Source: Candidatus Saccharibacteria bacterium CG_4_10_14_0_2_um_filter_52_9 (GTDB lineage: Bacteria > Actinomycetota > Acidimicrobiia > Acidimicrobiales > RAAP-2). From it: a stretch of DNA of 64,000 nt. This document shows positions 23,067 through 31,759 of this stretch, piece by piece (the stretch's first letter is position 1; the number at the start of each line of letters is the position of its first letter). The stretch covers positions 1 to 64,000 of the forward strand of contig CAJCJA010000022.1 in the NCBI GenBank assembly GCA_903970515.1. The letters are read 5' to 3'. The notes below the pieces were generated by a model. The model was not told where the DNA came from, did no database searches, and saw only the letters and a program-made list of their open reading frames with translations. Made by a program: the position numbers and the translations under genes.

Positions 23067-23588
23067 ATGAGTACTGGATCAATATTTCTCCTCCCGAACG
23101 GGACGTTCTTCGTCGAACTTCTCGTCGTCGTGATTATTTTGTGGCTCGCCACGAAGTACATCCTGCCGCCGCTTAACAAGGCGATGGAAACTCGTCAGGA
23201 GAAGATCCGTAGCTCCCTCGAGGCGGCGGACCAGGCTCGCGTCGAAGCCGAAGCCGCGGGCGAGGAGCGTGCCAAGGTGATCGCCGCGGCGCGCGACCAA
23301 GCGCGCGACATCGTCGCCGTAGCGCAAGCGACCGCGGATCAGGTGAAGGCCGAAGCCGCCGGTCGAGGACAACTCGAATACGACCGTATCGTCGCCAACG
23401 CCCAGAACGAGGTCGCGACCGCTCGTCAGCGTGCGATCGACGAGGCGTCCGCGAAGATCGGCGAGATCGTCTTCGAACTGGTCGCCAAGATCGTCGGACG
23501 CGAGGTCGACCAGAACGCGCACCAGGACCTCGTCCGCGAGGCGGTCGTCGCGCTCAACGCCGAGGCGCAGCGAGAGGCGAACCTCTAA
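23067..23588 (+). CDS. atpF: ATP synthase subunit b
   Basis: 173 residues. One N-terminal membrane helix (about 12-32, FFVELLVVVIILWLATKY) is followed by a long Ala/Glu/Arg-rich coiled coil, the peripheral stalk. The C-terminus AKIVGREVDQNAHQDLVREA contacts delta. Length is normal, and it is not fused to delta, unlike in mycobacteria. It is separated from atpH by 2 bp. Confidence 0.95.
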   Translation: MSTGSIFLLPNGTFFVELLVVVIILWLATKYILPPLNKAMETRQEKIRSSLEAADQARVEAEAAGEERAKVIAAARDQARDIVAVAQATADQVKAEAAGRGQLEYDRIVANAQNEVATARQRAIDEASAKIGEIVFELVAKIVGREVDQNAHQDLVREAVVALNAEAQREANL

Positions 23589-23590
23589 TC

Positions 23591-24502
23591 ATGCTGCCCA
23601 AGCTCGAAGGTTACGCCGCGGCCCTTTTGGGCGCACTGGAGAAGACCGTCCTCGTGACGGTCGCTTCGGACCTGGCGGCCCTCGAGCAAACGGTTCTCGC
23701 GCGTGCTGACCTTCGCGCCGTGCTGAGCGACACGTCCATTGGCGGCGTCGCGCGCGGACAGGTGCTTCACGATCTGCTGCAGGGCAAGGTGCACGACGTG
23801 TCACTTCGCTTGGCGGTGTTCGCGGCGACGAACGTGCCCGCCCAAGAAGTGGATCACGCAATCGCGGAGTTGGCCGTGGTCGCGCGCGTGCAAGCGGACA
23901 CCGGCACGTTTGTGCAGGAAAATCTTGGTCTTCTCTCGGCACGCCGGCGCGTCGGGGGCTACGCCGATGCGTTGTTGGAGGATCTCGACACGTCGAACTT
24001 CACGCAGATCGAAGAAGAACTCTTTCGCTGGGCGCGCACGATCGAAGCCAGCGAGGACCTACGACGATTGTTGTTGGATCGTGACGCGCCGCTCGAATCA
24101 CGCCTCGGCACCGTGGACCAGCTCTTGGGCGCCAAAGTGAATCCGATCACCCTTCGACTGAGCCGCTACGTCATCGAGGGTGGACGTCCACGCGACGTCG
24201 TGGGGACGTTGGACTTCCTCGTTGACTACGTCGCGCGGGCGCGCGACTGGCGCGTGGCGCGCGTGCACACCGCGCGAGCTTTGGACGCAGAGAGCCAGGC
24301 GCAACTCGTTGGTTCTCTGCGCACCTTGACGGGCAAGAGCGTCGAACTACAAATCGCTGAACAACCCGAACTTCTCGGCGGCGTGCTCGTCGAGGTGGGC
24401 GATCTTCGTCTCGACGCGACGACGCGCGGGCGCCTGGGTGAACTGCACGATGCCGTCGCGTCGGGACATTTTTTTGAATCCGCATTGAATCGAAATGACT
24501 AA
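23591..24502 (+). CDS. atpH: ATP synthase subunit delta with duplicated N-terminal domain
   Basis: 303 residues against about 180 in most bacteria. Two helical OSCP-type N-terminal domains stand in tandem: copy A about 7-108 (GYAAALLGALEKTVL) and copy B about 123-225 (GYADALLEDLDTSNF, then VNPITLRLSRYVIEGGRPRD). They are followed by a canonical delta C-terminal domain (about 226-303, LLGGVLVEVGDLRLDATTRG). Delta joins the b stalk to the top of F1. Mycobacterial b-delta fusion proteins are known to carry a comparable extra delta-like segment; here the same extension exists without fusion to b. Delta identity is sure; the duplication is my reading of the repeat pattern. Confidence 0.92.
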   Translation: MLPKLEGYAAALLGALEKTVLVTVASDLAALEQTVLARADLRAVLSDTSIGGVARGQVLHDLLQGKVHDVSLRLAVFAATNVPAQEVDHAIAELAVVARVQADTGTFVQENLGLLSARRRVGGYADALLEDLDTSNFTQIEEELFRWARTIEASEDLRRLLLDRDAPLESRLGTVDQLLGAKVNPITLRLSRYVIEGGRPRDVVGTLDFLVDYVARARDWRVARVHTARALDAESQAQLVGSLRTLTGKSVELQIAEQPELLGGVLVEVGDLRLDATTRGRLGELHDAVASGHFFESALNRND

Positions 24503-24518
24503 GTAAAAGGAAGTTGTG

Positions 24519-26036
<1,518 letters not shown>

Positions 26037-29425: not shown

Positions 29426-30466
29426 CTAGAAGCCGGTGGTGGTGAACTCTTGGAGCTTGTCGTGGCGGTGGAACGTCTCAATCGTGCGCACCGTACCCGA
29501 GCGTGAACGCACCACGAGCGACTGGGTCGTCGCCCCGAAGTCGTAGAAACGAACGCCCCGAAGGAAGTCACCGTCGGTGATGGCGGTCGCCGAGAAGAAG
29601 CAGTTGTCGCTCGCGACCAGGTCGTCGGTCGTCAGCACGCGCGAGAAGTCATAGCCCAGGCTCTCGGCGTAGCGCTGCTCTTCGGCGTCGCGCGGGTGCA
29701 GGATTCCTTGGATCTCACCGCCGAGTCCCTTGAGCGCGGCGGCGGCGATAACGCCTTCGGGGGTGCCCCCGATGCCAAAGAGCACGTCCGCACCCGAGTT
29801 CGGCCAACCCGTCGCAATTGCGCCCGCGACGTCGCCATCGGAGATCGACAGCACGCGCGCGCCGGCTTCGCGGACCTCTTCGACGAGGCTGTCGTGACGT
29901 GGACGATCAAGGATGACGACACCGAGTTCTTGTACTGGTTTCTTCAGACGAGCGGAGAGCTCGCGAAGGTTGTCCGTCGCCGAGGCGTTGATGTCGACGC
30001 TTCCTCGACCGCGCGGACCAACGGCGACCTTCTTCATATAGACGCACGGTCCCGGGTTGAACATCGAACCTCGTTCGGAGAGCGCGATCACCGAGAGCGC
30101 GCCATTGCGACCCGCCGCGGTGAGCGTCGTGCCGTCGACGGGATCGACCGCGACGTCCACCAGCGGTGGACGACCGTCACCGATTCGCTCACCGTTATAG
30201 AGCATGGGCGCTTCGTCCTTCTCACCTTCGCCAATGACGACGATGCCGTCCATCGCGATGGCACCGAGGACAAAGCGCATCGCGTCGACGGCCGCGCCGT
30301 CGGCGGCGTTCTTGTCGCCACGACCCGCCCAACGAGCCGCCGCGATCGCTGCGGCCTCGGTGACCCTGATCATTTCGAGAGCGATGTTGCGATCGGGCCT
30401 GGACGGTGGCTGCACGCGAACAGCGTACTCGTGAAAGTCTCGAAAAACCTTGGTCGTACGTGTCAT
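29426..30466 (-). CDS. glpX: Fructose-1,6-bisphosphatase class II
   Basis: 346 residues if started at ATG 30466. It hydrolyses fructose 1,6-bisphosphate in gluconeogenesis; this class II enzyme is the main actinobacterial type. Metal and substrate motifs are [56 protein letters not shown] and [16 protein letters not shown]. The core begins at about residue 26 ([20 protein letters not shown]), so a GTG at 30415 is a possible later start and would leave more promoter space before the divergent murA. Confidence 0.94.
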
Positions 30467-30493
30467 CGCGTCGATTCCGGCAATACTTGAGAG

Positions 30494-31759
30494 GTGAGTT
30501 CTCTCGTCGTGAAGCCGGTCGGTCCACTCGCCGGTGAGGTACTTGCCTTCGGGGCGAAGAATGCGGTGCTCAAACAGATGGCCGCCTGCTTGCTCGCGAC
30601 CGGGGAACATCATTTGTCGAACGTTCCCGACATCACCGACGTCGGCGTGATGGCCGAGTTGCTCGGCGCCCTCGGTTGCGTGGTGCGCTGGCCCGTCGAG
30701 CACGAGCTCGTCATCGTCGTGCCCGAGGTGAAGGACCTACGTCCCATCGCACCCGCACACCTCTTTGAAGCCATGCGCGCGTCAATCGTCGTCCTCGGCC
30801 CTTTGCTCGCACGTTGCGGAGAGGCGAACATGGCGTTGCCGGGCGGGGACGACTTCGGTCAGCGCCCCATCAATTTCCATACCGACGGACTCAGCGCGAT
30901 GGGCGCCACATTCCACAACGACCGCTCATCAATTCACGCGACCCTCGCGCGCCCACGGCTCTACGCGACGCGTATCACGCTCGAGTACCCCAGCCACACG
31001 GCGACCGACAACCTGATGATGGCGTGCGTCCTCGCCGACGGCCGCTCGGTCATCGACAACGCGGCGCGCGAACCCGAAGTGGAGGACCTCGGTCGCCAAC
31101 TCATCGCGATGGGCGCCCGGATTGAGGGATTGGGTACGTCGCGGCTCACCATTGACGGGGTGAGCGAGCTTCGCCCCGCGTCGCATCGCGTGGTCACCGA
31201 CCGAGTGGTGTCGGCGACGTATTTAGCCTCCGGGCTCATCACGGGTGGCGAGGTGCGGGTACTCGACGCGCGACCCGAGCACATGGAGATGTTGCTCCGC
31301 AAGATCGAGGCCATGGGTGGGCGCATCGACAAAGACGCTGAGGGCATCCTCGTGGGCGGTCCGACGCGCCTGAGCGCCTGTGACGTGGCGACCTTGCCCT
31401 ACCCGGGGGTCGCGACGGACTACAAACCGCTCATCACCGCGATGCTGAGCGTCGCGAGTGGCGTCTCGGTCGTCACCGAGAATCTCTTCGTGGGACGCTT
31501 TCGTTACGTGGATGAACTCGTGCGCTTGGGCGCGAGTATCACGACCGAGGGGCACCACGCGATGATCCGCGGTGTCGCGTCCCTGCAGGGAACGAGCGTG
31601 CGCGGCACCGACATTCGAGCGGCCGCCGCACTCGTGCTGGCGGGTCTCGTCGCGACGGGTGAGACGCAAGTAAGCGGCCTCGAGCACCTCGAACGTGGCT
31701 ACGACGATTTCATTGGGCGCCTGCAGAGTCTCGGCGCCGCCGTCGAGAAGTTCTCGTGA
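30494..31759 (+). CDS. murA: UDP-GlcNAc 1-carboxyvinyltransferase, Cys-to-Asp type
   Basis: 421 residues from GTG 30494. It transfers enolpyruvate from PEP to UDP-GlcNAc, the first committed step of peptidoglycan synthesis. Motifs: the substrate lysine in GAKNAVLKQM, IDNAAREPEVEDL, and RASIVVLGPLLAR. The loop that holds the fosfomycin-reactive cysteine in E. coli (GGCTIG) reads GGDDFG here, i.e. Cys to Asp as in mycobacteria. Gene order near atp and glpX is conserved in actinobacteria. It overlaps meaB by GTGA. Confidence 0.94.
   Translation: MSSLVVKPVGPLAGEVLAFGAKNAVLKQMAACLLATGEHHLSNVPDITDVGVMAELLGALGCVVRWPVEHELVIVVPEVKDLRPIAPAHLFEAMRASIVVLGPLLARCGEANMALPGGDDFGQRPINFHTDGLSAMGATFHNDRSSIHATLARPRLYATRITLEYPSHTATDNLMMACVLADGRSVIDNAAREPEVEDLGRQLIAMGARIEGLGTSRLTIDGVSELRPASHRVVTDRVVSATYLASGLITGGEVRVLDARPEHMEMLLRKIEAMGGRIDKDAEGILVGGPTRLSACDVATLPYPGVATDYKPLITAMLSVASGVSVVTENLFVGRFRYVDELVRLGASITTEGHHAMIRGVASLQGTSVRGTDIRAAAALVLAGLVATGETQVSGLEHLERGYDDFIGRLQSLGAAVEKFS

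Follow-up and report, generated by a model that had tools for sequence, protein, structure and literature searches.

What are the additional residues of an unusually long, stand-alone ATP synthase delta subunit, and where did they come from? The atpH gene in the 64,000-nucleotide stretch of DNA analyzed here (the window) encodes a delta subunit of 303 residues; the median short delta, by a simple start-codon rule, has 178 residues in 112 short loci. An initial annotation, made from the sequence alone, held that the OSCP-type N-terminal domain is duplicated in this protein, that the extension exists without fusion to subunit b, and that the arrangement is either an intermediate toward the mycobacterial b-delta fusion or an alternative to it. 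In the M. smegmatis b-delta subunit, as described in an excerpt of Montgomery et al. (PMC8617483), the domain is duplicated, the copies are about 20% identical, and each binds the N-terminus of an alpha subunit. The same excerpt calls b-delta unique to mycobacteria and describes a linking domain of five helices that is joined to helix 1 of the delta domain. On our reading, the two mycobacterial copies would then share a helix.

The gene lies in an atp operon, two bases downstream of atpF, which is read in a different frame, and directly upstream of atpA, which we named by adjacency and profile; atpF was identified by family match. Family searches found one delta gene and one b gene in the genome, the delta gene being the single PF00213 frame, with two matched stretches. 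AtpH is thus unfused and atpF is a gene of its own, just as annotated. The Pfam OSCP family (PF00213) matches AtpH at residues 124–288 with 113.2 bits, well above its cut-off of 22.3, and when the first 119 residues were searched alone the same family matched residues 8–82 (E 4.2e-5, 24.1 bits, cut-off 22.3). Elsewhere in the window, two frames on opposite strands overlap at their 5' ends: 29426–30703 (-), which we take from inspection of its translation to be a GlpX-type fructose bisphosphatase and which is probably over-extended in the mechanical list of open reading frames, and 30494–31759 (+), presumably, on the same kind of inspection, a MurA-type enolpyruvyl transferase. The features of the operon are as follows.

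23067–23588, + strand: atpF, subunit b, its own gene, the genome's only PF00430 match
23591–24502, + strand: atpH, delta subunit of 303 residues with a doubled N-domain (family match and predicted model)
23591–23908, + strand: N1, first six-helix OSCP N-domain, residues 1–106 (profiles, model, structure fit)
23909–23929, + strand: linker between the copies, residues 107–113, the least conserved of five stretches compared
23930–24253, + strand: N2, second six-helix OSCP N-domain, residues 114–221 (Pfam, profiles, model, structure fit)
24254–24433, + strand: delta C-terminal alpha/beta domain, residues 222–281, expected by analogy to bind subunit b (excerpt of PMC6131620)
24434–24499, + strand: C-terminal tail of AtpH, residues 282–303, of low model confidence
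24516–24584, + strand: N-terminal helix region of AtpA, the putative ligand of N1 and N2 (role from an excerpt of PMC8617483)

We compared the two halves by profile, a check proposed along with the annotation. A peptide scan with the query, which reaches close relatives only, matched 53 loci in other MAGs from query residue 1 onward. The window protein and 49 of these 53 loci form a 50-row alignment (A1); L045, L052, L073 and L082 were left out as near-copies, for a broken frame (L073, whose match length is not divisible by three) or for lying at a contig end (L082). Profiles of N1 (residues 1–118), N2 (119–228) and the C-domain were taken from A1. N1 and N2 match each other significantly (hhalign probability 97.7%, E 2.2e-12, 84 ungapped columns, 29% identity), and neither matches the C-domain profile (0.3% and 0.1%). 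Within the window protein itself, N1 and N2 are 27% identical at a register of 116 residues, compared with 4.5–10.2% at eleven alternative offsets in the range 80–125. A single-domain delta profile, built from 65 loci with short deltas in closed frames of less than 215 aa, was scored against all 196 of 196 loci (L001, L002 and L195 repeat the window's genome) and matches N1 at residues 6–95 with an E-value, counted for one protein, of 5.7e-11.

The predicted structure points the same way. The AlphaFold model of AtpH alone has a mean pLDDT of 88.6, with values of 91–98 in ten-residue blocks over residues 1–120, and contains two matching sets of six helices ahead of the alpha/beta C-domain: residues 3–14, 18–37, 39–45, 52–63, 69–81 and 84–104 in N1, and 114–129, 134–153, 155–162, 168–182, 185–197 and 203–221 in N2. 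The extra residues thus adopt, in prediction, the fold of an OSCP N-domain and not that of an unrelated helix bundle. The domain limits first given, 7–108 and 123–225, were nearly right, although the model places them at 1–106 and 114–221. Mycobacterial b-delta chains rank first in a Foldseek search with the model (E 1.8e-10). N1 (1–106) superimposes on residues 179–286 of the M. smegmatis linking domain with Z 14.7–15.1 and an rmsd of 2.1–2.2 Angstrom over 106 residues in three chains, and on the N-domain of E. coli delta (1abv, an NMR structure) with Z 10.8 and an rmsd of 2.7 over 100 residues; the tool warns that helical bundles may frequently give Z values below about 13. A whole-chain fit to M. 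smegmatis b-delta gives an rmsd near 15 Angstrom, and N1 and N2 may be placed differently relative to each other in this model, which comes without PAE. Because the profile match, the single-domain profile match, the 116-residue register and the model agree, we read the N-domain as doubled: AtpH has two complete OSCP/delta N-terminal domains before one C-terminal domain, and so carries in one chain the two delta N-type domains of the mycobacterial-type double alpha clamp. The central claim of the initial annotation, a 303-residue AtpH with a duplicated N-domain, is borne out by profiles, fold and structure fit.

What might such a protein do? Canonical bacterial delta and mitochondrial OSCP (PF00213) have one N-domain, and N2 together with the C-domain of AtpH amounts to a whole canonical delta. 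We propose that AtpH is a peripheral-stalk delta subunit whose alpha-gripping N-domain was duplicated in tandem. Judging from canonical delta, its C-domain would bind the tip of the b dimer and N2 would bind one alpha N-terminal helix in the ordinary way. N1, if it resembles the M. smegmatis linking domain on which we model its grip, would sit beside N2 on the F1 crown and hold the N-terminal helix of a second alpha, and a two-point clamp would replace the one-point clamp. We take the duplication itself to be, most likely, an event within Acidimicrobiales, separate from the one in actinomycetes. To this explanation as a whole, a two-point alpha clamp that arose by duplication within Acidimicrobiales, we assign a probability of roughly 0.62.

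Two other accounts of N1 bear on this proposal. An assembly or gene-calling artefact, in which an upstream open frame was read into atpH, draws on the observation that the stop-to-stop frame extends 126 codons upstream of the ATG, as is common in GC-rich DNA. We give it almost no credence: N1 is homologous to delta by both the short-delta profile and hhalign, and it is kept as protein in the 49 other aligned loci, observations that together refute the artefact. More substantial, though still unlikely in our estimation, is a role for N1 as a spacer in the structure or as an aid to assembly, in which it would pack on N2 or subunit b without binding alpha. N1 as a whole is conserved less than N2 (3.10 versus 3.44 bits). 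Its helix 5 shows variation, at 2.84 bits in a domain whose helices other than helix 1 span 2.83–3.10. Against a mere spacer stand the predicted fold of N1, which is intact, the strong conservation of its helix 1, the highest of any N1 helix at 3.84 bits, and the M. smegmatis counterpart, which binds alpha according to an excerpt of PMC8617483. In OSCP, helix 1 contributes to the site that binds alpha (excerpt of PMC4057687). Since helix 1 is the most conserved but helix 5, which completes this site, is no better conserved than the remainder of the domain, binding of N1 to an alpha N-terminus stays an inference by analogy. In the rows displayed, whether long or short, AtpA keeps its customary N-terminal helix and so gives no sign of co-evolution either way.

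A putative double alpha clamp with two copies of the N-domain invites comparison with the mycobacterial b-delta fusion (NF009961; M. smegmatis 7JG5/7NJK, M. tuberculosis 8J0S, M. abscessus 9VKP), which, like AtpH, has a duplicated OSCP N-domain and one C-domain, and whose fold N1 matches at about 2 Angstrom. The mycobacterial protein is fused to b and its copies lie about 90 residues apart, whereas AtpH is unfused with copies 116 apart; the mycobacterial linking domain has five helices, whereas each copy in the AtpH model has six. AtpH contains no b-domain and scores 69.4 bits against NF009961, below the cut-off of 328, which places it outside that family. Another parallel in architecture is the NCBIfam equivalog NF009967/PRK13430 (271 aa), a stand-alone delta with a separate atpF, two N-domains and one C-domain. 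AtpH falls below its cut-off of 200 as well (137.9 bits), with the best stretch on the second half of the model only, and N1 searched alone aligns not with the first domain of the model but with positions 104–194, its second N-domain. Three further Acidimicrobial proteins (L126, L128 and L129) also stay below the cut-off and match best on the second half only, so that none of the four scored passes. The cut-off is passed by L135, L136, L140 and L143 (the last barely, at 202.1) and by the delta part of the fused L141, and the matches of these proteins span both N-domains.

We then considered how widely the long form is distributed. Delta matches were present in 142 of the 149 genomes of our Acidimicrobiia sample (in two, G053 and G129, partial only). 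Frames below 265 aa are too short to hold N1, and full delta frames of at least 265 aa were fetched and tested. The long form occurs in 16 of the 142 genomes and in four families: all 12 genomes of the window's family (f1), both of f3, and single genomes of f5 and f13. Two loci of the window's family, both from one sister genus (L124 and L125, g3), have deltas of 322 aa by the start-codon rule; their N2 match is split, covering profile positions 1–77 and then, seven residues on, 65–168, which places about 20 extra residues within N2. Four genomes of another family, f17 (G041, G045, G061 and G069, one genus, about 1 Mb each), gave no delta match, and their relatives gave weak ones; incompleteness or fast evolution could account for this gap.

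Beyond the class, a phylum sample of 197 genomes yielded 167 matches, 17 of the matched genomes falling outside the matches listed. Among the matches listed, the long form was verified in at least 22 genomes: three Acidimicrobial, seven of f59, five of f64, two of f71, and one each of f49, f68, f86, f54 and f42. Family f64 is tied to mycobacteria through L141 and the PDB chains, and the other families that we call actinomycete are so labelled from tree position and genome size. Frame length by itself was rejected as a sign of N1, many stop-to-stop frames of at least 280 aa having no N1 match (for example L011, L015, L131 and L175–L179). Of 18 further regions fetched, 17 held a full-length delta frame (265–486 aa), with N1 in 6 and none in 11; the other, L213, is a partial match only. 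The single long delta of f42 (L191, genome G200, spacing 89) stands among other examined f42 members that are short, and its AtpA groups with f54; it may belong to a transferred operon or a contaminating contig.

Fusion to b was scored in 12 long loci from outside Acidimicrobiales, a set without L191 and the loci fetched later. The delta frame lacks a b-domain in nine of them (L135–L140, L143, L147 and L148) and is fused to b in three (L141, L142 and L153). Because nine of 12 are unfused and an NCBIfam family for such proteins, NF009967, already exists, the lack of fusion is ordinary. The annotated extension without fusion is therefore real, but as an alternative architecture it is nothing exceptional; likewise, the survey of AtpH lengths across Actinomycetota finds the long form beyond the window's family, but the unfused form is common there. 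Beyond the Acidimicrobial lineage, then, neither the doubling nor the absence of fusion is new or unusual, and the mycobacterial fusion appears to derive from the unfused long form.

Did the Acidimicrobial and actinomycete forms arise from one duplication or from two? A quick-method AtpA tree of 121 rows, which omits repeats of one genome and 24 loci where no AtpA match lies next to delta, and keeps only five of the close loci, contains 33 long rows and 88 short rows. The two forms require three changes on this tree, two of them forced by starred branches, and 21 Acidimicrobial long rows fall with 23 short rows in one clade (SH-aLRT 100). A single clade of all long AtpA rows is rejected (p-AU 0.006, on quick trees), and a single gain of the long form needs six losses. 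What this test speaks against is an operon inherited in common or transferred as a whole; it does not count against a delta gene that moved alone or an early gain that was later lost in several lineages. The proteins themselves differ in layout, the copies being spaced 112–122 residues apart in 19 of 19 Acidimicrobial rows and 89–96 in all 13 of the other long rows. The N2 profile of their own lineage gives Acidimicrobial N1 domains higher scores than the actinomycete N1 profile does (9 of 9), and so do a 47-row single-domain profile (9 of 9) and, in eight of nine cases, a single-domain profile matched in size at 11 rows. In the reverse direction the outcome is mixed, the actinomycete N2 profile being the best of the others for five of 11 actinomycete N1 domains, and divergence of actinomycete N1 could by itself lower its fit to other N1 domains.

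Trees of the delta domains separate the two forms as well, on short alignments. In the N-domain tree (91 of 175 domains used), actinomycete N1 and N2 fall in a group of 25 rows (90/96) that also takes in three of the four f54/f42 domains, and Acidimicrobial N1 and N2 stand apart from this group. The delta-core tree (68 rows, with a bootstrap that had not settled) has two long clades, one Acidimicrobial and one of actinomycetes with f54/f42 (98/99 and 99/87), and its starred branches force one change only. These alignments leave room for a single ancient duplication behind both the actinomycete and the Acidimicrobiales forms, with N1 later lost from most lineages or with the long delta gene passed between the two groups. 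The AU test on N-domains rejects no clade, whether of all N1 (p 0.22), of Acidimicrobial with actinomycete N1 (p 0.30) or of Acidimicrobial N1 with N2 (p 0.33), the one on delta cores does not reject one clade of all long forms (p 0.45), and the order of the domains is the same in both forms. Such a history would nevertheless demand the six losses on the AtpA tree, and it sits poorly with the difference in spacing, with the profile preferences of Acidimicrobial N1 and with the nesting of both long clades among short forms in the AtpA and delta-core trees. We consider it rather unlikely. A second, independent duplication is favored because of the resemblances of N1, the copy spacing and the separation in the AtpA tree.

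On balance, then, we think it more likely than not that the double alpha clamp has at least two origins in Actinomycetota, one in the actinomycete line and another within Acidimicrobiales. By the same reckoning, the actinomycete clamp would later have been fused to b in mycobacteria, and the Acidimicrobiales clamp would have kept two complete six-helix copies. The Acidimicrobiales form is probably a parallel duplication; the trees, the spacing and the N1 profile preferences all speak against the suggestion that it is an intermediate on the mycobacterial path. We found no paper on an unfused duplicated delta or on an Acidimicrobiia delta among titles and abstract openings of the open-licence literature, and the long delta of Acidimicrobiia, with its probable second independent duplication, looks new.

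The doubled domain is not tied to fusion: among the loci tested, most of those with a doubled domain have no b fused to delta. A second lineage with a double clamp, unfused and in environmental bacteria, would provide a comparison set for the role of such a clamp, be it in stator stiffness, in assembly or in relation to symmetry mismatch. The advantage of binding two alpha subunits similarly is called not clear in the excerpt of Montgomery et al. (PMC8617483). If the double clamp did evolve twice, the stator anchor would be a case of convergent evolution, and there would be a real advantage in holding two alpha subunits equivalently.
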